A DNA stretch of 64,000 nucleotides. Source: Prostheceraeus crozeri. Taxonomy: Eukaryota > Platyhelminthes > Polycladida > Euryleptidae. Shown here piece by piece: positions 8,513 to 60,767 of this stretch. The stretch spans positions 1-64,000 of the forward strand of contig CAJQUW010003210.1 in the NCBI GenBank assembly GCA_907163375.1, in the 5' to 3' direction. Positions within the stretch are counted from its first letter, which is position 1. Each line of letters starts with the position of its first letter. The notes beneath the pieces were generated by a model, which did no database searches, was not told the origin of the DNA, and was given only the letters and a program-made list of their open reading frames with translations. A program made the translations under genes and the position numbers.

Positions 8513-9373
8513 GTGATAGTTATCGCACTCTAGACTTCGTCGAGATCGAAGGTCGAGACGAAGCCTGGAGTGCAATAACTACCTTATTGCTTGACAGCGC
8601 GGAGGAGACGAATTGCACGGTTTCTGCACGCTGTCATACACAGGAGGGTGCCGATCATAGAAATAAACTGTTCATCTGAAGTTCGCTAGAATGGAAATTG
8701 ACTCAAGGTCGCGGCACATCCGAGGGAACTAAGTTGGGGCATGAAGAACCAATTAAAGGCTTCGATTTACTCATGTGACTGATTCTAACCCAATGATACA
8801 GACGTTGGCAGGTGCATCTAAGTGAAAATGCGTGCGATTTATGTGCCGCTATTGTGCATTGCATGAAGCTTAATTTCCATTCTAGTGGTTTTACTGTTGT
8901 CAATTTCTATGGTGCCGATAGATCGCCAAGTCAGCGCATTCCTTCATGAAATGACGGTGCGTAAATTACACTGAGTTTTAAAAAAGAACTTTTTTGGAGA
9001 ATAACTGTAGATAAATACCATTGATAATAATTCGATTTCTATGGCTTAGAATATGCCTATGATAATGGTATAAAATAACAATGTGCTGGTCTACCAATCG
9101 TTCCATCATAGAAAGCTCAAAGTGGACGCTACCTTTAGCGTTATCATGGCGCTGTTTATCAAAATATTTGGCAAGTGCTTCAGAATATCTCCATACTTAA
9201 CTGTTGTAAACATCAAGTGTTCTATTTCTATGTCTTGAAATAGACGTCTGCATACAACGAATACATTGTATACAACCACAGTAAGATAAGAAATTTTACC
9301 AGCCATGTAGCGATAAATTCTTCGATAATATTTATTGTGCGATGAGGGTCATTGATCATCCGTCGAGCAATGA
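8513..9373 (-). repeat. Large dispersed repeat, copy 1 (partner at 61.33-62.34 kb)
   Basis: On the minus strand this segment aligns with 61333-62338: both share GCTCGACGGA near the start, a stretch encoding V-V-V-x-N-V-F-V-V-C-R-R, the string TAAGCCATAGAAATCGA, and an end that folds back on itself (8513-8583, arms GTGATAGTTATCGCACTC and its inverse). This copy carries a 256-bp MITE at 8656; the partner lacks it but carries a different insertion. The frame conserved between copies (9106-9306) is short and unassigned. Confidence 0.7.
8656..8911 (+). mobile_element. P-type MITE (CATAGAAAT ends), copy 1, 8-bp TSD GTGCCGAT
   Basis: The element starts CATAGAAAT and ends ATTTCTATG, with a second inverted block TAGAATGGAAATT about 30 bp in from each end. 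It is flanked by perfect 8-bp duplications GTGCCGAT (8648-8655 and 8912-8919). Copies 2 (19206) and 3 (53719) share the sequence and each has its own 8-bp TSD. CA-initial ends, an inner inverted repeat and an 8-bp TSD suggest a non-autonomous P-superfamily element; hAT is the alternative. Confidence 0.9.
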
Positions 9374-18033: not shown

Positions 18034-18831
18034 GTGACCATGAGCATTGAAAGCAATGCTTCTTTGCGGCAAGCGTTGTGATGACAACCGCACCTGAGTG
18101 ATGGTGGCTTTTCAGTGGTTGAGAACGGTACGATGTCAGCTCGTTGTCAATGTCTTTTATAAAGACTCAATGATGCAAATAGTGAGCCTGGGTTTGTCAT
18201 TAGTAATAATATGCAGTAGTAATGGCATATTTTAGGGAGCTGCTTGTGCTTAATTGATTTTCTCTTAACCTAATTTTCTTATTTAATGCTTAAAGAGTAT
18301 GTACTTTCGTATACAATCTATACCTTCTGGAATTAGCTAGTGTGAATTTGGACAGATGAGCGATCTCGTGTCTATTGTTATTGGTCGACCCCACGCATGA
18401 CCACACTCCTGATAGTGTCTAGATTGTCACATCCGTCATCTTGTATGTCTCTTCTTGACAAGAATAGCACCTTGATAATCAGGTAACTGTCACTGCTTCG
18501 GTTAAAAGTCTACACTGAATTAGATTGTAGGAAAGTCAGGATACGATGGACATCACGTTGTCTGACAGGTGAAGATCAACCTGATCAACCTGATTAATAA
18601 CGGAAGTACCAGCACTACCTGAGGTTGTGCAGAATGTCATCAAAATTATTTGGGTGTGACGATTTGATGATTTGGAAATTGACGGAATCGCAAGAGAATC
18701 ATGAAGGGATTCACAGCAATCCGCAGTTGAAGAAAGACTGATCTGTAGAAGTTCTTGTGATTTATGATAAGGAAAGTTCATGGCAACATTCTGTGCCATT
18801 TTCTACGTCACATGTAAATTAACATTACACT
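18034..18831. other. No gene recognised
   Basis: A minus-strand frame at 18536-18799 shares the short string A-D-C-C-E with the repeat at 61.6 kb, and the nucleotides TTCACAGCAATCCGCA are shared too, so this stretch may contain a diverged copy of that element. Confidence 0.35.
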
Positions 18832-18990
18832 TGAATATCTAAAGAGAAGAACAGCTATTACGTCAGTACAAGACACCAACACCCTTGATTCCCCGACCGC
18901 ACTCGCCTGACCTAGGAATCGAACCGAAGTCCGCGGTGGAGACGAGCACGCACCTTCTTCACTAGGCCACACTGACGGTTCAAAAGGTAT
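18832..18990 (-). mobile_element. tRNA-derived SINE, copy 1
   Basis: On the minus strand the head carries an A box (TGGCCTAGTGAAG, about 18957-18969) and a B box (GGTTCGATTCCTAG, about 18911-18925), followed by a conserved body GGTCGGGGAATCAAGGGTGT and a tail ATAGCTGTTCTTCTCTTTA. The same body and tail recur in the copies at 19.15 and 19.66 kb. Confidence 0.75.
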
Positions 18991-19149
18991 GCGAGTGAAG
19001 GCAGAAGTCATCTCCAAATGATATCGACAGCTTATTGTCCTGTTATTATTGACAGAAAGCTACCAGCGTTCACATTGTAGCGAGACAGCATATCAGCATG
19101 TCATGCGACTGCGTCACAGTGTAGATTGACAACAAAGGTCTGTCGTACT

Positions 19150-19537
19150 TCATTGAATATTTAAAGAGAATAACAGCTATTAAGTCAATGCAAGACACCA
19201 ACACCCATAGAAATAAACTGTTTATCTGAAGTTCGCTAGAATGGAAATTGACTCAAGGTCGCGGCACATCCGGGGGAACTAAGTTGGGGCATGAAGAACC
19301 AATTAAAGGCTTCGATTTACTCATGTGACTGTTTCTAACTTAATGATACAGACGTTGGCAGGTGCATCTAAGTGAAAATGCGTGCGATTTATGTGCCGTT
19401 ATTGTGCACTGCATGAAGCTTAATTTCCATTCTAGAGGTTTTATCGTTGTCAATTTCTATGCCAACACCCTTGATTCCCCGACCGCGTTCGCCCGACCTA
19501 GGAATCGAACTGAAGTCCGCGGTGGAGACGAGCTCGT
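19150..19537 (-). mobile_element. tRNA-derived SINE, copy 2, split by a MITE and 5' truncated
   Basis: The SINE tail lies at about 19152-19205 and the body and B box at 19462-19537; the two parts are joined perfectly if the MITE at 19206-19461 and one CCAACACC copy are removed. The A box is missing: the copy ends within the region upstream of the B box. Confidence 0.75.
19206..19461 (+). mobile_element. P-type MITE (CATAGAAAT ends), copy 2, 8-bp TSD CCAACACC
   Basis: 256 bp, the same length as copy 1 and very similar in sequence. The TSD CCAACACC is at 19198-19205 and 19462-19469. The uninterrupted form ACCAACACCCTTGATTCCCC is seen in SINE copy 1 at about 18888, which serves as an empty-site control. 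Confidence 0.93.
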
Positions 19538-19654
19538 CCGCTGTGTGACGTAATCGAATGACATGCTGATATGCTGTCTCGCTACAATATGAACGCTGGT
19601 AGCGTTCTGTCAATAATAATAGAACAATAAGCTGTCGATATCACTTAGAGATGC

Positions 19655-19850
19655 CTTCACTCGCATTCCTTTTGAACCGGCAGCGTCGCCTAGTGAAGAA
19701 GGTGCGAGCTCGTCTCCACCGCGGACTTCGGTTCGATTCCTAGGTCTGGCGAGTGCGGTCGGGGAATCAAGGGTGTTGCTGTCTTCTATTGACTTAATAG
19801 TTGTCATTCTCTTTAAATATTCAATGAACTGCGACAAACTTTTGTTGTTA
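19655..19850 (+). mobile_element. tRNA-derived SINE, copy 3, inverted
   Basis: Plus orientation, with A box (CGCCTAGTGAAGAAGG), B box (GGTTCGATTCCTAG, about 19731-19744) and the same body and tail as copy 1. The spacer before it (19540-19650) is the inverse of the spacer after copy 1 (19000-19120), so 18.83-19.85 kb is an overall inverted structure. Confidence 0.75.
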
Positions 19851-21479
19851 ATAACATTGCACTTGTGCCCCATTCGCATGATGATATACACTGATGATGG
19901 TGCGAAAGCTCTCTCTCTCTGGATCTACGTATGTAGCTTCTCTAAATAGTTCAAACTTGTCTCTTGCTTTTACAGGAATTAATTCTTTGACTAAGTCCGA
20001 TGTTTCTGCTTCCTTTTACAAGGACTATATCGAATGCTGGAAAATGCAATCAGATACAGTACACAGACGTTAGTGAAACATAAATTATACATCAATATAA
20101 AAGGATAGATCAGACAGTTAAGACAAGGTCAAAGTCAACAAGTCACCACTGAACTGGAAATTAAGTAGGCCTATAGCAAAAGTAAGGAGGAAAGTTGAGA
20201 TGGACTGATTGTAAATTAGAGAGTGAGGATTCACCAGCACAAATGAAGACCTTTGACTGTTCTTAATATACGCAGATGCAAGTGATCGCCTAAAAATGGT
20301 GTTCCGCTCCATTTTAATGATGTTCCAATTGATTGAGGCTCCAGGGCCAGTCTGATTGGTAATTTTTGAGTGTTGAAATTCGACATGCTCTTGAGCTTAG
20401 AAATCCAACTTTTCCCATTGCTTAACTTGGCTAGACTAGATCGAACAGAAGCTGTGACTTGATAGTTATTTCACCTGATCTTGATGTCGCAAGATTTTAG
20501 GAAGAGTCGAATTACTGAAACTTGCAAGAATAGCTGCGAATTCTTGCCGCAAGGTGATATATTGTGAGTTATTTTAGCCACGCGGAATTGCTTCTATTCA
20601 TAAAAAGAAATGAGAGCAAAATTTGCGAATCTTTACAAAGTTAGCTCACAAAGTACCGGTACCTTGCACCGTTGACACGACAGGCAAGCATGTCCACCCA
20701 GTGACATAGTTTTTAGTGTACATGTCTCGTGTAATTGCGCGCATTCTCAATCTAAATCTTACTGCTTGTTCAGTTTGACCAATAGGTTTTATATTGTTAA
20801 GTGTACAAGATATTTGGCACACTACATGTCTGCAAAGCCATTGTGCTTTTTTCATGCAGTTTGCAAGTCCAGTAAGATCGATCCCACTTTGTCTTTTCGG
20901 TCTTCTTTCTACATCGATGACTCAGGGTATCTCCCTTTGAAATATTTTTGCGAATCTTATGATTTAATTCACTCATACGGACCAACCTGATGACTTGTCT
21001 CTTCGAAACCTCAAGGCATGCGAGTTCCATGAGAGTTGCAGGACTGCGTTTCACGGACTTGTAATTCATTTATGGATCTGCTTCTGTCGAGAGATGCTCG
21101 CATCTCTGTCTTCACCCTATTTTCCCGAACTATTTTGACTTCTGAAAGCCTGGAGAAGGAAACTGCACTAATTCTGAAGCTCATCAATCGCTTCCAAAAT
21201 TTCAGTGCAACACAATTGTTGCATGCCGTTCCACTGGTGGCATAAGCTTTCCATCAAATCAGCACTCCTGTTCCCATAGATGGTAGTTCAAGGATGCGCT
21301 CAAGAATTCCTGAAAACTCTCATAATTGCTCATGTTAATAAGACCGATTTGCTGGAGCACGTGTAGTAAAACAAGCACGTGTCGCTGCTTGCAAATTTAG
21401 TTGGTTGACTAAGTAGACTAAATAGCTAGTTAATTGGTTGGAGACTAAATTTTATTTGTTTTCTCTTTTCAACTGAAAA
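19851..21479. other. No gene recognised
   Basis: A short CT run at 19911. Frames at 20.6-21.2 kb lie on both strands and look like chance. Confidence 0.5.
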
Positions 21480-23403: not shown

Positions 23404-24940
23404 TCAGCTGATGATAGGAAATGATAGGAAATTGTTATCAATGCCTGACAAATAACAAGCCGCTTTTGCAAATGATGAACCACAATATGGCCACAGCTTC
23501 TTTCTCATCTGGTTTCGTAGAAGGCAGCAACTCTCCCGAGCGATGGCAGGCACTTCTTCACTAATCTGCATTTGGAACAAGTGAATATCCAAAGTAAGAT
23601 AGTTCAGGTAAGATAGATGAGAAGTTGGCTCATCAACCTCAACTCTGTCAAAGAAGCACTTGACGGCTTCCATAATATCCAACAGAGATTTCAGTGAAGG
23701 TAAAGGTGGCAAATTGTCAGATACATGACAGTCTTCTTCTGACAGAAATACAGTGTAGTTGTCCACCGCAGATCGAAGTCGAGAATGTTGAAAGCGCCAT
23801 GGGTGAGTCGTGCTTTTATCAGGAATAGCACGCTTCAGTCGCTTCGCATTTTGGTCGCGTACATTATAGAAAGATTCCACAGAAGTCAGATTAGACAGCA
23901 TGCCACTTAGTAATTCTGGTGGAGACTTCTCGAAAACGTCTTTGACACAAGTCGACAAGGCATGTTTGGTACAACCAATTCTACCACCCAAGTTCAGCGT
24001 CGTTGGATAACGGCCGTCGAACGCTGCGACCATTTTCGGTTCGTTGTCGCTAACTATAAAGATGGATTGAGAGAGCTCACCCTGTTTTTCATCATCCGGT
24101 GACTTAATGCATTCTTCGAGAATTTTGAAAGTGAACTAAGCGTCGTGTGGTACATATCCAAATCACAAATCTTAAGTGGATAACTGAACCAACGCCAATC
24201 TTTATCGAGTCCACAAGCAACAATAGCAAAATAAGAAAGTCGATGTTCATGTCTTCCAGACCAAAAATCAATCATGCATGATACACCAGCATCCGGATCG
24301 TTGAGACTGTTTCTAAAATGATGTTGCAACTTCGCATGGGATTGCTCTCCCTCAGTCATCAACCCCGATGAAATGTAAGTTCGTCCGATGGAATAGTCAT
24401 TGATCTTGTTGTTTCTGTGCGTTACCGAAGAAGCGAAGTTTGCGCAAGAAGATGCAATTTGAGCCATGGCGTTGATGGACACAGTCGGATGTGCACAAAC
24501 AAGCTTCACTACATGCTGCTGCCATTGTTCTTTTGCTTCTTTCGGAAGAGGAGGCTTGCTTGTTGGTGGAGCACATTGAAAACTTCGGTGAATGGTGAGT
24601 TGATTAGACGTCGGCGTCGCCGGTGCGCAGTTTCTCTCGAGATGGCGCTTTATTGCACTGACCCCACTCTGGTTGACCCACTGTCCTCTTGTCTTCTTAA
24701 ACCAAAGAAACAATTTCTTACAGGGATCACAATAAAGGAAAGGGACCAACAATGGTTTCTTGTCGTCTCCTGAGCTCTCGGCAACCGGTGATATGTCCAC
24801 TTGCACGGCATTTATCCTCGAATCAAGATTGGCACTACCACTGGTTAATGACTTCGGTGGTGGAACAAAAGATACACGAGCAGCAGAAATGTGCTGCTGC
24901 AGAGTTTTTTGTCTACTTCGAGGAACTTGTTCGAAGACAT
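23404..24940 (-). pseudogene. hAT transposase with BED zinc finger, frameshifted and truncated
   Basis: Reading the minus strand: a BED-type finger (C-x2-C ... H-x4-C, from YCDPCKKLF through RHLERNC), then the first catalytic region, CMIDFWSGRHEHRLSYFAIV, with its aspartate near 24275; a frameshift at about 24125-24140; the second aspartate in IFIVSDNEPKMVAAF near 24040-24060; and the C-x-x-H motif of hAT proteins (GCTKHALSTCV). The C-terminal insertion partly remains, but the catalytic glutamate region and the hATC dimerisation domain are missing beyond 23404. The longest frame opens at about 24806; a better ATG at 24940 needs a second frameshift at an A6 run near 24910. Cannot be active. 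Confidence 0.85.
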
Positions 24941-25211
24941 CGCAGCGACGACCTGCCTCAGATTGGGAACTGAAGTTGCAGACGATTATAATTACATCAT
25001 ATATCTCGATTCCTCTTCGGTCTGCAGCCTAATGAATCATCGCCAAGCGTCAATCAGGGGAAAAGAATGTTTTGCGAGCTCACATTCCCTCACTTGAATT
25101 GTCAAAAGTTGCGTAAGTGAACTTGATCATGCAGCGCACGGGGCGAGAGAATCGGTCGGTCAATGACATGGATACTGATTCTCCTCCCGTCGGTTGACGC
25201 ATGGAATACTA

Positions 25212-26628
25212 CACCATTTCCACTTTAATTACAGAACTCTGCAGTTATATTCAAGAATCCAGCAGATTTATTTCAGCATTTCAAGTTTGTATTTCAGATT
25301 GAAGCATTTATATTTTTGACAACATTTTAATTTCAGAGAATTTTTGTGCGTGTGTTTAAATCATTTATATTTGAGAATGCAACACTTATATTTCAGACTT
25401 TGTCATTTCTAATTCAGAAATAGACTTTATATTTCAGAAATAATCATCTATAATTCATTTTCAGTCATTTATATTTCAGAATTCCAGAAAAGACGATATA
25501 TATTTAAGAAAGTGTCATTTATATTTCAGATTTGCAGTTTATATTTCAGAACCGGTCATTTCAATTTGAGATAGCTGCACTTATAATTTTAGACGCTAGA
25601 AGTAATTCAGAATACGTCATTTATATTTCAGAAATCCCCATTTCACTTTCAGAATTGGTCACTTGCAATTCATATGTCAAGTTTTAATTTCAGAAACGGT
25701 GAAATATATTTCAGAATGCATCAGTTTAATTTAAGCACTTCTCAGTTGTCAGAAAATGCTTGCAAAGATCCGAATAGTGTGCAGGAGGCTAAGGTATAAA
25801 TTGGCCAACACAGATGATTGATAAAATTACTGTTGGTGACAATGCAAGTGTCCGATAATTGTGCAATTTGTTTGAGACCAATGTGAAAAGCAACATTATT
25901 ACGAATCCTGCCATGTATGCATTTATTCCACCGCGAATGCATTGCTCCTATTACGAACAGCGTCAATGCGTTAAATATAAAATCTCTGGATGAAAAAACG
26001 CATCTTTTATCTTACAAAATCAAATTAAAGAATATTGAATATCTCACAAAGTGATAGAAGCTTCCATTTTATTGAAAATGCAACTTCTGATTTAAAGAAA
26101 AAATTCTCAAATTTAATTGATGCATTCTGAAATATATTTCACCGTTTCTGAAATTAAAACTTGACATATGAATTGCAAGTGACCAATTCTGAAAGTGAAA
26201 TGGGGATTTCTGAAATATAAATGACGTATTCTGAATTACTTCTAGCGTCTGAATGATAAGTGCAGATATCTCAAATTGAAATGACTGGTTCTGAAATATA
26301 AACTGCAAATCTGAAATATAGATGACACTTTCTTAAAGATGACACTTTCTTAAATATACTATATCGTCTTTTCTGGAATTCTGAAATATAAATGACTGAA
26401 AATGAATTATAAATGATTATTTCTGAATTAGAAATGACAAAGTCTGAAATATAAGTGTCGCATTCTCAAATATAAATGATTTAAACACATGCACAAAAAT
26501 TCTCTGAAATTAAAATGTTGTCAAAAATATAAATGCTTCAATCTGAAATACAAACTTGAAATACTGAAATAAATCTGCTGGATTCTTGAATATAACTGCA
26601 GAGTTCTGTAATTAAAGTGGAAATGGTG
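25212..26628. mobile_element. 1.4 kb foldback element of tandem ATTTATATTTCAG motifs, TA target site
   Basis: Two arms of about 520 bp (25212-25733 and 26108-26628) are inverted copies of each other around a 374-bp loop. Each arm is built of degenerate units about 25-30 bp long centred on TTTATATTTCAGA, close to 20 per arm. The ends are CACCATTTCCACTTTAATTA and its inverse, directly bordered by TA on both sides (25210-25211, 26629-26630). The right arm has an extra duplication of about 18 bp (GATGACACTTTCTTAA twice near 26321-26352). No coding potential. Architecture is that of Drosophila FB-type foldback elements; superfamily unknown. Confidence 0.9.
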
Positions 26629-26714
26629 TAGATATTAACACCTGGAATGATCATTTCCCAAATTTCTTCCTCTCGCTCGGGATTTCTTAAGTCAAAGCTT
26701 CGAACAGATGTAAG

Positions 26715-29460
26715 CTGACCTTAATGAAACTGACCAAGTGGACTCGCTAAAGGCTATTGAGGAGAAGTTCTCGTCTGAAACCTCTCCCTCTGGATTTATG
26801 ATTCACCGCCATGAAGGTATTCTTTACTTTCTGTACTTAGACCTGTCGTCCTCTCCACCCCAAGTCAAACGATCTATAATAATTCATCCCAATTTGAAAT
26901 TTAAAGTCTGCGGTTCTACAAGAAGTTATCCCCCATACCGATTTAAACATATCACGTCCACCGATACAATACGCCGCATGAGTATTCTACTTAATCTCAT
27001 GGCTTTCGTGAAGAGCAACTCTAATGAAGCCAATGAAGAAAATTTGAAAATGGATGCGATCGCCCTTTTGCGAGTAAGTCATACACATCATATATTTAAT
27101 TCATATCACAAATACAGTCTTTATGTATTCTATTCATTTTCATGTATTTTATTCATTCTTGCATGGATACTACATGCATTTTAGATATATAATAACATTT
27201 TATCATAGTGAATTGATTCAAGTTTTAATAGATATTCATCAGACAATGATTTTCAATCAAACTACAAGTTATTATAAATTGAATATACTTCACTGATCAA
27301 TTGATATAAGGAGCCACTACGAGTAAATGTTATTTTTGACATTGACACTTGAATATTTCAGCTAACTGAATCCTTGGGCTCAGCCCTATGGGCCACTATG
27401 CTCAAATTTCTAGCGACTCTCACTACATGATATTTTTGACATTGACACTTGAATATTTCAGCTAACTGAATCCTTGGGCTCAGCCCTATGGGCCACTATG
27501 CTCAAATTTCTAGCGACATTTTTTTAATCTTGCTTTTTATATTCGTGCAACGCACGTTTCTTCAGATTCAATATCATACATTATTACTTTCACATTTTCA
27601 GAGACAAGTCGAGCTGGATGAAAATACAACAGAGAATCGTTGTCTCAATTTCTTGATAGAGCAGCTTGAATCCTGTCAATGGCAAGAAACTATTCCTCAT
27701 TTTTGATCCAACCCATAATCTGAAGAACCTTTACAACAATTTTCGCTCGAGAGCTATGTTTCGCTGTCCTGAATTTCCTCTAATCCTTTGTGAATGTACT
27801 GAAGGCCGTTTCAAAGATATAGTTTCTGTTTACGATGCAGAGAAAAACCAACCCCTAAAACTAGCTCACAAGTTGAACAAGACCGTCATGAATCCTTCCA
27901 ATATTCAAAAAACGAATGTTAAACTGGCCAATGCTGTTCCACTAGTCCACTATCTACGCATTGAAAGCTTATGGATATGTCAATGCTGCCAAAATTATTG
28001 AACTGTTTAGAAAAGTTTGGAATATCTTGAATGTTAAGACTTCGAGTATTGGATTCCACAAGAGAGACATCACTTTAGATCCCGTTACATCTGTTGACGA
28101 TTGGAAGCTAAATAAAGTTTCTAATGGAATTTCATGCCTTTTGTGCAAATGGGAAGATTCCCAGGTAAGACACTTGTTAAATGAACTATTAATCAATATG
28201 TTTGAAGCCATACCCTTATATAGTATTCAAGATAATTTCCAATAGACAGAGAGCGCTGTATGAGATAATTTTCAGGAAATTTCTCTGGTTTTTTCTGGAA
28301 TTGATGGCTAGACGGATAAAATATTAAGGTTTTAGGAAGATATTTAGTAAAACAATTGAATGACCATGTGTTTTGTTGGCTATGTAATTATTATTGCAAA
28401 ATTAATTAATAATTCGACTAGATCAACTAAATACATATTCGAATATTTGCAAGATTAAATGCAGATAATATCAAATGTTTCTGGTTGAATGAACTATTTT
28501 CTACTAGATTTCGTGCCGGTAGACAATTATTTTTTTCATTAATTTGAATTAACAATTGAGATAATATATTGAACTACATATATGTATTATTTTCAGGAAC
28601 CCGGGCTTACCAAGCAAACATTTCTCGCTTTCAAGCAGACTATCCCTGTTATTGTCGGCTTATCGCACCACTTGTTTGAAGAGCATGGGTTTAACTACCT
28701 TCTCCTCGGACTTATTCAATCAGACAACCTGGAATCACGATTCGGATGGTATCGACAGCTCAGTGGTACGAATTATTTTGTCTGTTTGAAGCAGCTGGAG
28801 TATAGTGAGCGGAAGACTCGAACCATCTCACTTTTGAGATACTCAGGCTTCTCTGTTGCTGACATTGATAATGTCCTTGAATTAAGTGAGCCTGTACAAG
28901 TTGATATTGGTATAATAGCAAAGGAACAACCTGATGAACTTCTACTGAACCATTTGCCATCAGAGAAAGACATGGTTGTCCTCATATATGTTTGTGGTGC
29001 CTGTGCCCGATCCATTTATAGAACGAAAAAATGTGATTCCTGCAAAGCTTCACTGATTGATCCGGACAAGAATTTATCTGTGGACGAGAACACGCCCGCA
29101 TATGAATTTCTTGATTCAATCGATAGAGGAGGCTTATATTTTCCGCTAAGCCATGTACTACAGATCAGGGTGTGTTGCTGGAAAATTTTTAAAGAGGTCG
29201 ACGCATCGCAAGCATTATCGAGAAAATTGTTTTCGACTCAAAACAGCCGTCGCATATTTTGTAACGTGGTTGAAAATCTCTTTTTAGACAACAACATTGA
29301 GGCATTCGGTATAACCATGTGTACAAATGGGCATTATCTTGTTTTTGAAATGTCCAATCGTCTGTATAATTGCTTTTTGAAAAACTACACAAATCGAATC
29401 TCAGAAAGAGATTTGAAGGCCAAATTAAACGCAAAGTGTTCCAAGTTTTCGAATCACTAA
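26715..29460 (+). pseudogene. P-element/THAP9-like transposase, several exons, frameshifted
   Basis: A first exon (about 26715-27073, donor GTAAGT at 27074) encodes a part like FKHITSTDTIRRMSILLNLM, typical of the region before the catalytic core. A small exon follows at 27362 and is duplicated at 27462. From 27606 the frame runs to a frameshift near 27670-27690, then FDPTHNLKNLYNNF (an aspartate region, near 27703), then another frameshift near 27955-27965. An intron at 28165-28596 has good signals (CAG/GTAAGA ... TTTTCAG). The last exon (to TAA 29458-29460) holds SDNLESRFGWYRQLSGTNYF, the conserved acidic block of THAP9-like transposases, and C-x2-C pairs in the tail. No THAP zinc finger fits between the left end and the first exon, so the N-terminus is deleted. 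Non-functional. Confidence 0.88.
27331..27517 (+). repeat. Exact 87-bp direct duplication, 100 bp apart, carrying a splice acceptor and small exon
   Basis: 27331-27417 and 27431-27517 are identical. The unit includes TTGAATATTTCAG followed by a frame-compatible exon reading LTESLGSALWATMLKFLAT. Exon 1 ends at a codon boundary, so either copy would splice in frame, but both then meet stop codons. Confidence 0.95.
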
Positions 29461-29741
29461 AAGCATTATTTTGAAATGTATTTGTTTTTAGTTCTTCATG
29501 ATTTTGTTAATGCTGTAAGACCCTATATCAAACAAATGAATACAATGTGCCGATGTTCCTATCAACAATAATATATGCATGTAGCAATAGTTGTATGCAT
29601 AAGATAGGATAAAGCACTGGACGATTAACTAATCCGACAAAAAAAATCATTTCACGCGCGTCTGCCTAATGGCCTCTCATCGTAGCGCGTCAAAATGAGT
29701 GATCATTCCAGGTGTTAATATCTAGAATTCCATGGTTGACG

Positions 29742-31638
29742 ATGCGAATTGACAGACAGCCTCAACAGATACATGTAATTACATAATCCAGGTTCTCTCT
29801 CTCTCTCATTCATTCAAGACCGATATTAGTCTTCCTATAAGATTGATAAGCCAAGAAAAGAATTGTTATGATGATGGTTACCGACCCGTGTTTCGTCACC
29901 CTGACAGAATCATGCTTTTTTCAGACAAGGACAGCCTGCCTACTGTAGACACACCTGTACAATGTACATGTATAAATGTTGCATTTTCACTTCAATCTGT
30001 GCGTCATTCATGAGCGGCTTCGCCTAGTCATCCAGTAAGATGAGTGCAACTACAGCCTGCATTCTCGCTTTCTCACAACCTTTGCAAACCAAAAAAGAGT
30101 TGATACTTTCAAATAAGATTTAAATTTATCTTATTTTGGTGATCAAAATTTTCATTTAATTCCCATGGGATTCCCATGATCTGAAGCAAGATTCCCATGG
30201 GAATTCCCATTCCCACGACAAGCCTGCCTAGTAGGAATGCCTAAAATTAGTAGGATTGCCTGATCGCATCGGTTATGAAGATCGCCCAGCCGAGCTGACA
30301 TTCTTTCATGGGTCCGCGCTGTCAGAAGCTTTGTTGTGATAATGTATTAGTATATTACTCATAATGTACATTAAAGGATTCCACTAAAATAAGATTTAGA
30401 TGATTTACAGTCATTAATTATTTCTAATATTTGTGATAATTAAATAGTTTATTCAATACATGATTTCTGATTATCAATTTTGTAGCTGCGATATATATTT
30501 GTAGGTGAGTAGTAGTGAAGTTGCAAACCTCACTCAGACAGTATAGAATAGGGAACTGCTACTAAAGTCATAAATGCCTAAACTCATGTGATTCGAGGAG
30601 AACTGAGATATCTCTTTAAGTCTTCTCGTAAGTAAATCGAAGAGGATTCGGAGAAGTTAATGATTAGAAGACTTCAAGATCAAAGAGATCTGACTTGAAA
30701 TTCGAGAAGTTTGAGAAATTGAACCGATATCTACGGAATGACAATTGTTGAGTTAATTTTGCTGTCTTGAATTGAGATCACGAGACAGAATGTCTAACGA
30801 TTGCACAAATGATTGAAATGGGCATTTCGAGACCCTTAATCTTGTGAGAGATTGATTTAGACGGATTTTGACCAGCACTTCAATCAGTCTGAACTGATAT
30901 GTTTAGCTCATTTAATGAACCTCAGAATGAATTCGAAGACATTTAGAAAAATCGTGACTTCCTTAAATGCAAGTACTGATGTCGAGACACATTTATATGA
31001 ATCTAGATGGATCAACCCATGAGAGACACATTAACAATGCGAGTTCAATGTAAGTTGATAAATAATTCAAAGGTTGTAAGGGAGCGTGTGAATAATTTTA
31101 AGACCGGTTGTGAATGCTATTTCGATAGATAAGACACACTGTAAATTCAAGCTTTCATGATTGACTTTCTTCTAACTGCCACTGTGATATAATTTGGTAG
31201 AATTTGAGTCTGATGTTAGCCATCAGCTGAAAATATTCTACAAAATATATTTTGATTCTATAATCCATAAGATAGTTTAAATAGCAAAACTACATGTACA
31301 TGAAATTCTATAAATACATGGAAAAAATACAATGAATACATGAACACTTGAACATTTTGAACAACTTGAACAGCTTGAACACATTGAACGCAAAAATACA
31401 TGAAATGAATTCTACATGAAATTTTTTTGCATGCACACGAAATACTTTTAACGCATTTCGTGCATTAATCTTGTAAAAGTGATATTCAATTTCTCTAGGT
31501 CGGCCGTTTAAAAGCAAATAAACCAAAAGCAGATATTCAAAATTTATAATCACCGATTTTGACACATATGTTTTGAAATTCTCTTTTTTGATTCCTGTTC
31601 ACGATGCTAAATTGAGTGATTTTGATAAGCAGCTACTA
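29742..31638. other. No gene; small repeats
   Basis: CT run at 29797-29807. TTCCCATGGGA strings are repeated at 30165-30215 near CAGGCTTGTCGTGGGAATGG (minus strand), which resembles a transposon end. The 10-mer AGCCTGCCTA occurs at 29932 and 30231 and might be a TSD, but no inverted ends support it. 31070-31600 is featureless. Confidence 0.4.
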
Positions 31639-32310
31639 TAGTCCGGCAGCCAGAATGAGTTTCAGCAGGGAACGAGGCCGAAAGTGAGACTTAAACAGAA
31701 TGATGTGCACCCCATGCCCTCTGTCAGACAGGATTAAAAAAAACACATATAAATCCAATGGGACGCAGATTGCAGTTTTTGGTTAAAAAATGAAATTTTC
31801 TATGGTTTCTCTGATTAAACGAAAAGTACTAAGCCCAGAGTCATAATTTTTGGCAAGGAATTTCTTCAAGTCATTTCCTATGATGTGCATGTGATATTAC
31901 CATGCTTCTGATCTGAAATGCATGTGAGAATGTGGATGAAGTGGGCCAACATGTTGGTGTTTGCCGACATTAAGAGGTTCGCCAAATCTAAATGTACTTA
32001 GCTTTATAGACTGGGGTGCATGAAAATGAAAGGAAATTACTTGAAAACATTCCATGCCAAAAATTATGTCTCTTGGCTTAGTACTTTTCGTTCAATCAGA
32101 GAAACCATAGAAAATTTCATTTTAACCAAAAACTGCAATCTGCGTCCCATTGGATTTACATGTGTTTTTTTTAATCCTGTCTGACAAGAATAGGAACTCA
32201 CCAGAACTCGGCAGACGTGCCGATTCGTAGTAGGCATAGGGTGTACATCATTCTGTGAAAGTCTCATTTTCGGCCTCGTTCCCTGCAGAAACTGGCTGGC
32301 TGCCGGACTA
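31639..32310. mobile_element. GTCCGGCAGCC element, complete copy with long inverted ends
   Basis: TAGTCCGGCAGCCAG (from 31639) pairs with CTGGCTGCCGGACTA (to 32310). The inverted arms run about 240 bp each, including ACGAGGCCGAAAGTGAGACT and TCCAATGGGACGCAGATTGC on the left and their inverses on the right. No coding frame. Flanks allow a 3-bp CTA duplication at best, so the superfamily is open. Relatives at 21.5 and 51.8 kb are partial. Confidence 0.85.
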
Positions 32311-53718: not shown

Positions 53719-53956
53719 CATAGAAATAAACTGTTTATCTGAAGTTGACTAGAATGGAAATTGACTCAAGGTCGCGGCAACTAAGTTGGGGCATGAATGA
53801 ACAATTAAGAGCTTAAATGATGACTGATTCTAGCCCAATGATTAAGACGTTGACAAGTGTATCTAAGTGAAAATGCGTGCGATTTATGTGCCACTGTTGT
53901 GTAGTGCATGAAGATTAACTTCCATTCTAGAGGTTTTATTGTTGCCAATTTCTATG
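53719..53956 (+). mobile_element. P-type MITE (CATAGAAAT ends), copy 3, 8-bp TSD GCCTAAGC
   Basis: 238 bp, slightly shorter than copies 1 and 2 because of small deletions. The TSD GCCTAAGC is at 53711-53718 and 53957-53964. Just beyond the right TSD another CATAGAAATCC begins (53965), so it landed directly beside an older end of a related element. Confidence 0.92.
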
Positions 53957-53964
53957 GCCTAAGC

Positions 53965-54649: not shown

Positions 54650-57508
54650 ATCTTCATGCACAAACTCTATTACAAATCCAGTATAAATTGATCAAGGAAT
54701 ATCAGTGTGACATATTATAGGTATGCTGTTGTGTTATTGGCCCATAACGATGCCAAATTTTCAAAATGGCGGTCATTTTTTGCTTTTTTGCATTTTTGAA
54801 GTTCAGATTATTTATACAAGCCTTCGAGTTTGCTCATATCATGTTCTCTCGTCACACGTCATAATCAGAAGCTATGTTGTCGTTATCGCTATTCCGAGAG
54901 AGACAAAAGCAGCTATTTTGAGGTCGGACGAATATCTATGTCCCATCTAGACATCAACGATCGATGATCGTTTCAATTCAATGCAACACATATCATGGCT
55001 ATTCAAAGATGATTTTGGTATTGTGACGTCAGCCAAGCAATATCATAATGAAAGTCAACATATTGAGCACATCAGAAGTTGTTTTCATCACATTCAGACA
55101 AGTATGCCATATGAGCGAATGAACCACAATGCGTGTAGAGAGAAAGTTTGTTTACTGTGTCTCCGAAAATCGAAGGAAATGCGAGTTCTTACAGAAAATC
55201 AGATTAGGACTATTCATTCAAATTTAATGCATTTTGATCCCGATGATATTCGATATCCAACAGCAGTTTGTGGAAAGTGTCGTCTTATTCTATCGGAATA
55301 TTCTCGAAACATATATGATCACACTATTGAATTACCAGAATATTCATTGATTGGGCGTCCATCACGAACTCGAGATTCTGATTGTGACTGCTACATTTGT
55401 AAAATTACAAAGTCAACCTCAAATCCAAATTTGAAACAACGCAACGCGTTTCCATGGAAAAAAGCTGAACAGCCATCAGAATCTGGAATTTCTAAGAAAC
55501 TGTGTGCAAAATTTCTATCTGAATTCGGAAGAGGAAAGAGTCATCAGTGCACCAAAGATACATTTAAACAGAACTTAAGTGATATTCAGTCACAAACATC
55601 ATCGGATGATGAATGTGTGGGTTCTACAGGCCAGTCACGAACCGCAAGCTTTGAGATTTCTTCAAAAAGTCTTGCTCATATTCAAAGTGAGTTGAATCTT
55701 TCTCGTAACAAAACACTGAAGCTAGGTCAAGAAATTCTTAAAGCAACGCAGAATCAAGTATCAATTGAACCATTTTTGAAAGACAAGTTGCACAATATTA
55801 GTCATTTTCTCGATGAACAATTTGAAGTGAAAACGTGCCACTTTTTTGATAATTCTGGGGAACAGTACGAGAGACCTGCAGTGTATTGCAAAGATATTCA
55901 AAGACTTATCCATGTGATATGCACAACGAGAGGTATTGACCACGACAATGTTTTTATCAAATTGCCTCTTGATGGAGGCGGAGGCTTTTTTAAAGTCATG
56001 ATCAGCGTTTTTACCATCGATGACGAGAATGTGCAACCAAAGACAAGACATCGAAAAGATACTAATACCAGCGTAAAGAAAATTTTCTGGATTTTGATTA
56101 CTCCCGAAGTGGATGAGAATTATCGAAACGTACTCCAAATGTTCGTGACATTGATATTAAAAGATCTTGGAGACAGGTGGAAAATTGTTTCAGATTTAAA
56201 GCTTGCCAACATTATTCTTGGTCTGATGGCCCACGGATCAACCCATCCTTGCAGTTATTGTGATATCGATAAGTCAAAGTTGGATAAAGAAGGAAAACTC
56301 AGGTGAGCTAAAATGTTGTCGCGAGTCTGACGTAGAATCATCTTTGAGGAAATACGTTTGCAAATTTTTCATATCTTATGTGGATAGGCCCTCTATACAG
56401 TACATTCATAATATTCTTTGTTTGAAGTGCTACTTACATTTTTATAATACGAGTATCAAAGCTAAAAGCTGCAAGCACTATTGCACATGTATAGGCCCTA
56501 ATTCTAAAGTCTTAGAACACGTAGGATCTATGACAAAGGAATAAAAAACTCTATGTAAACATTTTTGCTAGATTGAGCCTAAACAATACTCTTTATGTTT
56601 TAGGACCATTGGCAACTTGAAAGAAAAGTTCTGGGTGTGGTTTTCCAGCAGTAAGGGTAAATCAAATGCAAAACAATTTGGAAATGTTATTCATTCTCCC
56701 TTGTCAAACATGCGGATGAAAATGTTGAAATTATCGACATTCTGGTACCACCGGAGCTACATCTCCTCATTGGTGTTGTAAATACGTTGTGCAATCATCT
56801 GATCAAAGTCTTGCCACAGGCCATAGAAAAAGAAGCCATGCATGGAGGAGCATTCGATGGCAACTCTTGTATGACTCTTTTGAATAATATTGACTTGTTG
56901 AGATCTTTGTGCCCACTACAATGTCTACGATTCGTTGAGTTATTCTCACTCTTCAAATTGATTGTGAAATCTTGCTTTGGAGCAGCATTGTATCCTGATT
57001 TCCGACGTTTTATTGATGATTTGAGGAGAGCATACTAAGATCCAGGACTTCCTGTCACACCGAAGTTGCACATGGTGTTCTACCATGTGCCAGAAAGCTG
57101 CGCACTCAGACTTTAAAGTCACTTGGTTAAAATACAAGGTCAATTTGATCAATTCAAGATATCCTGAACGGCCCCTTCACGCAGTTTGCGAGTACAACTC
57201 TTTGCATTTGTAAATTTAAGCTGTCAGGCCTATATACTATGTCTGCAATTTTCCTACTTATGTACAAAATGCCGAGTCACAGTCGATATATTAAATGCAT
57301 TCATTACATTGTTATTAACACTAATGAAATACATATACTCATATAAAATAATCTGAACTTCAAAAATGCAAAAAGCAAAAAATGACCGCCATTTTGAAAA
57401 TTTGGCATCGTTATGGGCCAATAACACAACAGCATACCTATAATATGTCACACTGATATTCCTTGATCAATTTATACTGGATTTGTAATAGAGTTTGTGC
57501 ATGAAGAT
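54650..57508 (+). mobile_element. Unclassified DDE-type DNA transposon with about 165-bp inverted ends
   Basis: ATCTTCATGCACAAACTC at 54650 through TTCAGATTATTTATA near 54815 is the inverse of 57343-57508, nearly without change. The arms include CAAAATGGCGG and CCCATAACGATGCC. A transposase gene lies between. I could not find a TSD directly outside these limits, so the true ends may lie further out on one side. Confidence 0.8.
54981..57213 (+). pseudogene. Transposase-like protein with Cys-rich N-terminus and D-D-E residues, family not assigned
   Basis: The first exon codes 441 residues: C-x2-C pairs at about 57-60 (CLLC), 97-100 (CGKC) and 137-140; a low-complexity linker; DGGGGFFK with an aspartate at 331; SDLKLANIILGLMAHGSTHP with a second aspartate at 405; then C-x2-C at 424-427. 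A good donor (CTCAG/GTGAGC, 56303) and acceptor (TTTTAG, 56603) remove a 301-bp intron. The frame then shifts near 56705, continues through IKVLPQAIEKEA and GGAFDGNSCMTLLN, meets a TAA at 57036, and resumes as PVTPKLHMVFYHV, a likely glutamate at 57093, a one-base shift, SDFKVTWLKYKVN and the stop at 57211. The order D...D-CxxC...E fits an RNase H-fold transposase. Similar proteins occur widely in invertebrates; I cannot name the superfamily. Confidence 0.75.
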
Positions 57509-59704: not shown

Positions 59705-60767
59705 TCAATCGTATATATCATCTCTACGAATACATGCTGGAATGTACTTCATCACATGAGTCAGAAAACTATTGCACTTCTGAATATTAACAACCGGTAA
59801 ACAGCTCTCCAATTCACGCGAAACAACACGAATCCTTCGCAGTTGTAGATTACCAGGAGAAGTACGATTGTAAATTTCAGCTTGAATATGTGGCTCCGAC
59901 AAACTTCGTTTCACAGCCGCTTTCAAGCAGGATCCTGCCATCTCACAAGCATTTAGAAAAGGAGAATTTGTCGGAAGATGTCGAAGATAGCCTTGCTGCT
60001 GATTACCGAATCCTGGAGCATCCATGTGAGGCCTGGCGTTGTCACATAAAACAACGTAGTTAACATTGACGATGGCCATTAATTCACCAAGTTCAACCAA
60101 AAAATCATTGAATCTTTCTTTGGTCATTCCGCCAGCGAAGATGGAATAATGGACAACACCAAGTATGGGACTTACAGCCAAGCAGATGGTGACATTTTGA
60201 CCTCTTTGTCCTTCTACGATACGAACCGCGCGATCACCGCATATGGATCTTCCTTTAGTTCTGGCTGTCCACACATTGCATCCAAACTCATCAAGAAACA
60301 CCTTGTGTGTATGCAGACCGTCACCCATCATCCAATTGGCGAAGACACTTCTCTCTTCCTTTACTTGAGGTGTATTCCACTGCACCGGTGCTACCCGAAC
60401 ATCTTTGAGAGTATAAAACATGCCATCAATTTGCTTACTGATGCATTGATGACTGACAGCAGGTTTATCGGGTAAGTCCACACGCAAAGAGCTCCTTCAG
60501 CTCTTTGAGTGTGATAGTTGGCTTCTCTTCTATTTTTGATATCAAATAGAATCTCATTTCATCGTCGAACTTGTGATGTCTTGCCCCTCCTCGATTCTGC
60601 CGCTCTACTCTACCGTTCATCATGAAATTAACTATGATGTTACGAGCAGTTTGACGGGAAATGTTTAAATTTCTTGCCAACTCTTGATAATCTCGACCTT
60701 CAATGAAGGCGTCAACCAAACGTTGGCGATCAACATTGTTGATAGTTTGATAAGCTCCCCTCAGCAT
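59705..60767 (-). pseudogene. mariner/IS630-type transposase with one frameshift
   Basis: The N-terminal part (60465-60767) has a helix-turn-helix: QRLVDAFIEGRDYQELARNL, ISRQTARNII, then the linker GRVERQNRGGARHHKFDDEM. After a frameshift near 60480 the DDE_3 domain follows: FLDEFG (first Asp), VVLCDNARPHM (second Asp), LPTNSPFLNACEMAGSCLKA, where the glutamate of the usual N-P-x-E-N is kept in NACEMAG. Spacing from the second Asp to this Glu is 32 residues. Typical pattern elsewhere is LPPYSPFLNPIE, so a few sites are substituted. First ATG at 60767. Probably a young pseudogene, since only one frame change is evident. Confidence 0.9.

Follow-up and report, generated by a model that had tools for sequence, protein, structure and literature searches.

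The site described here lies in contig CAJQUW010003210.1 of the polyclad flatworm Prostheceraeus crozeri, within a stretch of 64,000 nucleotides referred to below as the window. It consists of a P-like transposon (25200-29734) that is inserted in a high-copy coding repeat and carries, in its left inverted end, a foldback element of 1,417 bp. The nesting itself is ordinary; the notable part is the RING-finger transposon with foldback arms to which the foldback appears to belong.

The outermost boundary of the P-like element is a pair of GTTGACG heptamers, proposed as such in the first-pass annotation and holding at 25193-25199 and 29735-29741. That annotation had further described the left end as interrupted by a TA-bordered foldback, which is confirmed at 25212-26628, and had stated that the rejoined left end matches the right end over some 35 bp with one mismatch; with the foldback and one TA removed, 34 of 35 positions are indeed identical and the similarity stops beyond them. 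The P-like end contains TCTAGA, and with it the CTAG target favoured by the foldback. Searched for at up to three mismatches, the end sequences of the foldback and of the P-like element are each present at two places in the window and at none in shuffled sequences. The foldback arms are about 524 bp long; their outer 214 bp are 99% complementary, while the inner part contains insertions and deletions of up to 20 bp. Open reading frames (ORFs) within the arms were discarded as repeats, not genes. Taken alone, the window copy is compatible with a P-like duplication of 7 bp (GTTGACG) as well as with one of 8 bp (GGTTGACG, the right end then reading ATTCCAT); the 8-bp version was rejected, since the other copies fix a length of 7 bp and a tip of CATG (CATA at one end).

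Table 1. Positions of the nested elements, of their coding remnants and of the surrounding repeat in the window.
Feature	Position	Strand	Remark
Outer repeat, left part, broken frames (23404-24135, 24054-25028)	23437-25199	-	95% to L086
Left 7-bp target duplication GTTGACG	25193-25199	+	single copy in 4/4 aligned empty sites
P-like left inverted end, outer piece CATGGAATACTA	25200-25211	+	final TA doubles as a copy of the foldback duplication
Foldback left target duplication TA	25210-25211	+	single TA in 34 unoccupied P-like ends
Foldback CACC...GGTG, 1,417 bp	25212-26628	none	
Foldback left arm with ~21-bp repeats (core TATATTTCAGA)	25212-25735	+	
Remnant of RING-transposase gene start in foldback loop, 43 codons including one stop, then cut off	25842-25970	+	compared with L075, L079
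Foldback right arm	26106-26628	-	
Foldback right target duplication TA	26629-26630	+	
P-like left inverted end, inner piece	26631-26653	+	
Internal deletion junction, 585-598 bp lost (size varies with the copy compared), THAP exon removed	26668-26677	+	alignments to L009, L015
P-like transposase, first remaining exon	26714-27073	+	96% to L015
100-bp minisatellite in intron, ~2 units	27327-27517	+	
P-like transposase, next exon	27602-28163	+	570-bp internal deletion at 27665-27669
P-like transposase, last exon, open to stop	28597-29460	+	
P-like right inverted end, 35 bp, undisturbed	29700-29734	-	
Right 7-bp target duplication GTTGACG	29735-29741	+	single copy in 4/4 aligned empty sites
Outer repeat, right part	29742-30229	-	96% to L086, joined to left part there

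The genome searched comprises 2.05 Gb in 14,165 contigs. As a query for the P-like family the inner 23 bp of the end were used, which stay intact when a foldback occupies the preceding CTAG and so introduce no bias against occupied ends; they gave 137 forward and 142 reverse matches at up to three mismatches. Eighteen copies were read, namely 16 close pairs among the matches listed, L026 and the window copy. A single insertion, present on two contigs, accounts for both L010 and L013, which leaves 16 distinct copies among the 17 outside the window, and the single-end loci L025, L027 and L028 were left out of the counts. The target duplication is identical at seven of seven bases in 17 of the 18 copies and at six in the remaining one (L011), and all 34 ends of the 17 other copies start with CATGGAATTCTAG or are one base off. 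The duplications lean towards a palindrome, with G at position 1 and C at position 7 in 20 of 30 (15 distinct duplications on both strands, L011 omitted). Aligned pieces are mostly 95-98% identical between copies, those of L026 86-93%.

These copies bear on the proposal that the P-like element has foldback arms as an original part of its own structure, in the manner of Galileo, a member of the P superfamily for which 7-bp duplications are likewise given (PMC4168063). The likeness in superfamily and duplication length is outweighed to the point where this reading has next to no chance of being right: neither end carries a foldback in any of the 17 other paired copies, the window copy alone having one, and foldback sequence is absent from loci L001-L028. 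The right end in the window is also free of a foldback, an argument already made in the first-pass annotation, and it stands. The foldback/P junction (one of the two was searched) occurs a single time in the genome at up to three mismatches, in the window, while the other foldbacks have TA flanks of their own. The Galileo-like reading was accordingly rejected on the armless copies and the unique junction. The same counts answer two checks suggested beforehand: P-like copies without a foldback exist (17 of 17), and arms at both ends are not a feature of all copies, with which the reading as a nested insertion survives. The single junction in the genome gives no indication that foldbacks have inserted repeatedly at the P-like CTAG.

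At least 40 places in the genome match the two flanks of the P-like element, once joined, over all 300 bases at 95-96% identity, and in four of four aligned empty sites GTTGACG is present once. Empty sites thus exist for two insertions, that of the P-like element and that of the foldback, and they show that the insertions followed the order first suggested, P-like element before foldback. The outer repeat extends in the window over at least 23437-25199 plus 29742-30229. Its own ends and duplication were sought in vain, and its frames returned nothing meaningful from Pfam; we presume from motifs alone, with no Pfam match behind the label, that it is hAT-like.

The coding content of the P-like family is best seen in the longest copy, L015 (4,263 bp), which has a THAP exon (PF05485, 4.9e-6, above cut-off). 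Features of the P superfamily that were found include a THAP domain, present in this relative, and the 35-bp inverted ends and 7-bp duplications. In the window copy itself PF21787 (TNP-like_RNaseH_N) is absent, and its pieces match no Pfam family. The junction at which the THAP exon was lost has 10 bp common to both sides. The 570-bp deletion further downstream, with 5 bases common at its junction, removes the RNase-H N-terminal part, and an additional frame break is found near 27950. The alignments show that the window copy derives from a THAP-bearing element by internal deletions, and because the THAP exon and the RNase-H N-terminal part are deleted and the frame is broken once more, it is predicted to be non-autonomous regardless of the foldback. 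It is probably also immobile, as the foldback splits its end 12 bp in. The number of units in the 100-bp intron minisatellite differs among P-like copies (L012, L018, L022, L024).

The foldback is itself a member of a large family. Its end gave 182 forward and 204 reverse genome matches at up to three mismatches (386 in total), or roughly 190 copies if the ends are paired, and the full 1,417 bp are matched at five other places at 86-93%. Twenty-one paired copies were read, window included, with lengths from 352 bp to 11.2 kb; TA is found on both sides in 20, and CTA and TAG in 17. Long arms with internal direct repeats, as expected of a foldback-type element, are present. The 57 foldback and relative loci contain no P-like sequence, in flanks of 0.2-0.4 kb for the paired copies (20 besides the window) and of up to 1.5 kb for single ends; foldbacks outside P-like copies, which it had been proposed to look for, are thus represented by the 20 other paired copies, within the flanks fetched. 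The near complementarity of the arms, together with inverted flanks around one copy at L059, could also suggest a palindrome produced by local rearrangement, through a hairpin or an inverted duplication and without any transposon. Such an origin is very improbable in view of the shared ends and TA flanks in 20 of 21 copies, the exact empty site and the coding relatives that carry such arms.

At L059 (C76), L060 (C94) and L065 (C903), foldbacks occupy the same spot of another repeat. At L059 an identical 39-bp flank, inverted, borders one foldback on either side, and a second foldback lies 52 bp away, an arrangement that resembles the outcome of an inversion between foldbacks. Reverse transcriptase ORFs (RVT_1) were found in two of the three longest foldbacks and not in the third, L074. 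Such ORFs lie inside copies L075 (1828-3478), L072 and L073, with near-identical copies in a row in C3916; we take them to be Penelope-like and GIY-YIG-like.

The probable source of the foldback was found through L075, whose arms are 96% and 89% identical to those of the window foldback and enclose an ORF in which a RING-H2 finger scores above cut-off (2.6e-10). The matches to HTH_32, a helix-turn-helix (3.9e-7), and to DDE_3 (1e-5) fall below theirs, the DDE domain being truncated at this locus, and the ORF is interrupted by the reverse transcriptase insertion. The loop of the window foldback encodes, from an ATG at 25842, MQVSDNCAICLRPM followed by a stop, which is the same N-terminus as that of the L075 protein. 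The genome holds at least 150 matches to the L075 ORF and at least 111 to the L080 ORF. C7708 (L085 and L079) is 2,533 bp long with CTA/TAG flanks and an ORF of 384 codons, short of about 17 residues ahead of the first catalytic D. C4990 (L082, L080 and L083) measures 2,494 bp, has the same flanks, an inverted match of 583 bp at 99.8% and an open ORF of 401 codons from the first likely ATG, and its protein is 61% identical to that of C7708. Both carry arms of the foldback type that end, like the foldback itself, in CACCATTTCC. In C7897 (L081 and L084), 46% identical to C4990, one end, CTA-CACCATTTCC, lies about 120 bp from the stop codon, with arm-type repeats on the opposite side and the second end outside the fetched part.

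The protein of L080 is an IS630 transposase by NCBIfam (NF033545, 141 bits; cut-off 100), with DDE_3 (PF13358) at 1.6e-24 and HTH_32 and zf-RING_2 above cut-off. In three of three relatives 32 residues separate the second D from the E, and not the 34 of Tc1 proper, a DD34E family. The TA duplication expected in the IS630-Tc1-mariner group is found in 20 of 21 foldbacks and in the coding copies C7708 and C4990. All three relatives keep the eight RING-H2 zinc ligands and the next residue, Arg, without change, and RING matches of L080 in PDB include Arkadia and RNF165, among others; the finger may be an active E3 ubiquitin ligase. Relatives of the RING transposase outside this genome were sought in viral and prokaryotic contig collections, and none was confirmed. 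Foldback elements are often without a known coding partner. Here the family is linked to a coding IS630/Tc1-type transposon by arms, ends, target and gene remnant, and because these are shared, comparison of the sequences makes the window foldback kin of the RING-finger transposon.

For at least 14 of the 111 listed matches to the L080 ORF, which form a sister group, the alignment starts only at residue ~52-62. One sister, C304 (L090, 20850-21450), has no RING in the part read and the same arm-type repeats upstream. As it combines arm repeats with the absence of a RING in that part, the two appear to be separable, and the RING was apparently gained or lost within the clade. One could then regard the RING-transposase ORF (L075, L079, L080) as captured cargo in a family moved by another transposase: the ORF is present in few of the foldback copies read, and repeats like those of the arms are found in C7897 and C304, in each case on the side that was read, although C304 lacks a RING, so that arms and RING would be separable. 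We consider this unlikely, as the ORF encodes a transposase of the IS630 type, the very group for which a TA duplication is expected, and ends, repeats and transposase occur together in C7708 and C4990, which are 61% identical, with one end also in C7897.

The arms themselves are arrays of a short motif. The core TATATTTCAGA, at up to two mismatches, occurs 16, 14, 7, 15 and 19 times in five arms, where fewer than 0.6 occurrences are expected in shuffled sequence. Motif distances of up to 125 bp, pooled over four lineages, fit best to multiples of 10.24 bp, close to a helical turn (score 0.77, falling to 0.67 at 10.35 bp and 0.41 at 10.5; the maximum in 500 random placements is 0.27). In C7897 the motif has a period of 20.6 bp over the fetched array, with R 0.99 against 0.28 at 21.0. 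Fitting one period per arm gives a mixed picture, the best values in six arms being 19.75, 22.55, 20.70, 20.60, 20.95 and 20.80. Duplication of a 21-bp unit by itself would lead to values of 10.5 and 21.0, so the deviation may mean, by analogy with the several THAP-domain sites in the long ends of Galileo, that the sites are kept on one face of the helix; the repeats are putative binding sites of the transposase.

Taken together, the data make it very likely that the P-like element entered an older repeat and that a deletion derivative of an IS630-Tc1-mariner-type transposon, the foldback, then entered the end of the P-like element. In the first step, a P-superfamily element with 35-bp ends inserted into the high-copy coding repeat at GTTGACG, creating the 7-bp duplication; with its THAP exon and RNase-H N-terminal part gone, the copy in the window would be movable only by transposase made elsewhere. 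In the second step the foldback entered CTAG in the left end, duplicating TA. Its source would be a transposon of about 2.5 kb with a single ORF of about 400 codons (RING-H2, helix-turn-helix and DDE) and long arms of ~21-bp repeats. The transposase is envisaged to bind both the ends (CACCATTTCC) and the arm repeats with their helical phasing and to cut and paste into CTAG with duplication of TA, and deleted copies such as the foldbacks would be mobilised in trans by it. A more tentative proposal, which we hold to be possible and rather less than probable, is that of an IS630/Tc1-type lineage with a fused, working E3 ligase, in which the phased arm arrays serve as a loading platform for many transposase molecules, the RING marks bound transposase or host proteins for removal, and the foldbacks are deletion offspring.

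Several observations weigh against parts of this reconstruction. For the P-like element, L015 contains two adjoining pieces of TNP-like_RNaseH_N at 0.013 and 0.15, both below the Pfam cut-off, and searches of P-like pieces in NCBIfam and of the catalytic pieces in PDB gave nothing meaningful. In the foldback family, copy L076 has no TA on the right, and at the single end L045 it is TAC that precedes CACC. The RING of L081 scores 25.6 bits in Pfam, below the cut-off of 27.3, with all ligands kept. The AlphaFold model is weak (mean predicted local distance difference test score, pLDDT, 56; RING part below 50), and its best matches, Mos1, Sleeping Beauty and Metnase, are taken as supporting only. 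As to the helical spacing, the arms of the window foldback and of C7708 favour a period of 21.0 bp over 20.7, and that of C4990 stays within its null near 21 bp. Random placement, moreover, does not serve as a null for tandem duplication, to which some of the periodicity must be due.

With the P superfamily (P element, 1360, Galileo; THAP9) the window family shares the THAP domain of L015, 7-bp duplications and internally deleted copies, and its CATG tip is also that of the Drosophila P element; it differs in the weak RNase-H match of L015. Galileo has a 7-bp duplication with the consensus GTANTAC (PMC4168063) and long ends that contain several THAP-domain binding sites (PMC3688188). The two likenesses to Galileo fall on different elements here, the 7-bp duplication on the P-like element and the repeats in long ends on the foldback. 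The P-like ends are 35 bp long and without foldback arms, in contrast to the long repetitive inverted ends native to Galileo; such arms are here part of another element, one of IS630/Tc1 type that duplicates TA.

The RING transposon resembles IS630-Tc1-mariner elements (Mos1, Sleeping Beauty, pogo) in its DDE_3 and IS630 models, its helix-turn-helix and its TA duplication, and differs from them in the N-terminal RING-H2, the foldback arms of ~0.5-0.75 kb, the 32-residue D-E spacing and the preference for CTAG. Tc4 of Caenorhabditis elegans is a foldback element with a palindromic CTNAG target and a TNA duplication; it thus shares foldback structure and a palindromic target with the element described here, whose duplication is TA, and to our knowledge it has no RING finger. 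A literature search on Tc4 and its CTNAG target brought up unrelated papers. Bari elements are members of Tc1-mariner, some of them with long inverted ends, and we know of none with a RING finger or arms of foldback length. A search of the open-access literature for 'DD32E' together with transposase found no description (subscription papers and Repbase lie outside that search), and among part of the open-access matches for RING with a Tc1, IS630 or mariner element, none describes one by title or abstract start. In PMC3630058, RING fingers are reported in retroelements.

The conservation of the RING ligands across three relatives that are 46-61% identical, and the long arms on the same element, offer a testable case both for the purpose of long repetitive ends and for a transposon with its own ubiquitin ligase. 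The nested site in addition yields exact empty sites for two families.

Elsewhere in the window, an ORF of 277 residues on the plus strand (461-1294) matches the packaging ATPase Pox_A32 (3.5e-6, above cut-off). It lies in a stretch (1-2000) that has only 24% guanine plus cytosine and contains tandem repeats, and the region could derive from a Polinton-like element or an endogenous DNA virus. At 54650-57508, perfect inverted repeats of 139 bp surround an ORF of 451 residues (54951-56306) with a weak zf-AD match, probably another DNA transposon. Two more foldback-like inverted repeats are located at 18831-19852 and 31658-32293. Segments 19206-19461 and 8656-8911 share 96% identity, and part of the former also matches 53821-53957 and 8776-8912 at 89-93%. 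Finally, an ORF of 263 residues on the minus strand (59705-60496) contains DDE_3 (4.2e-9) and represents another transposase.

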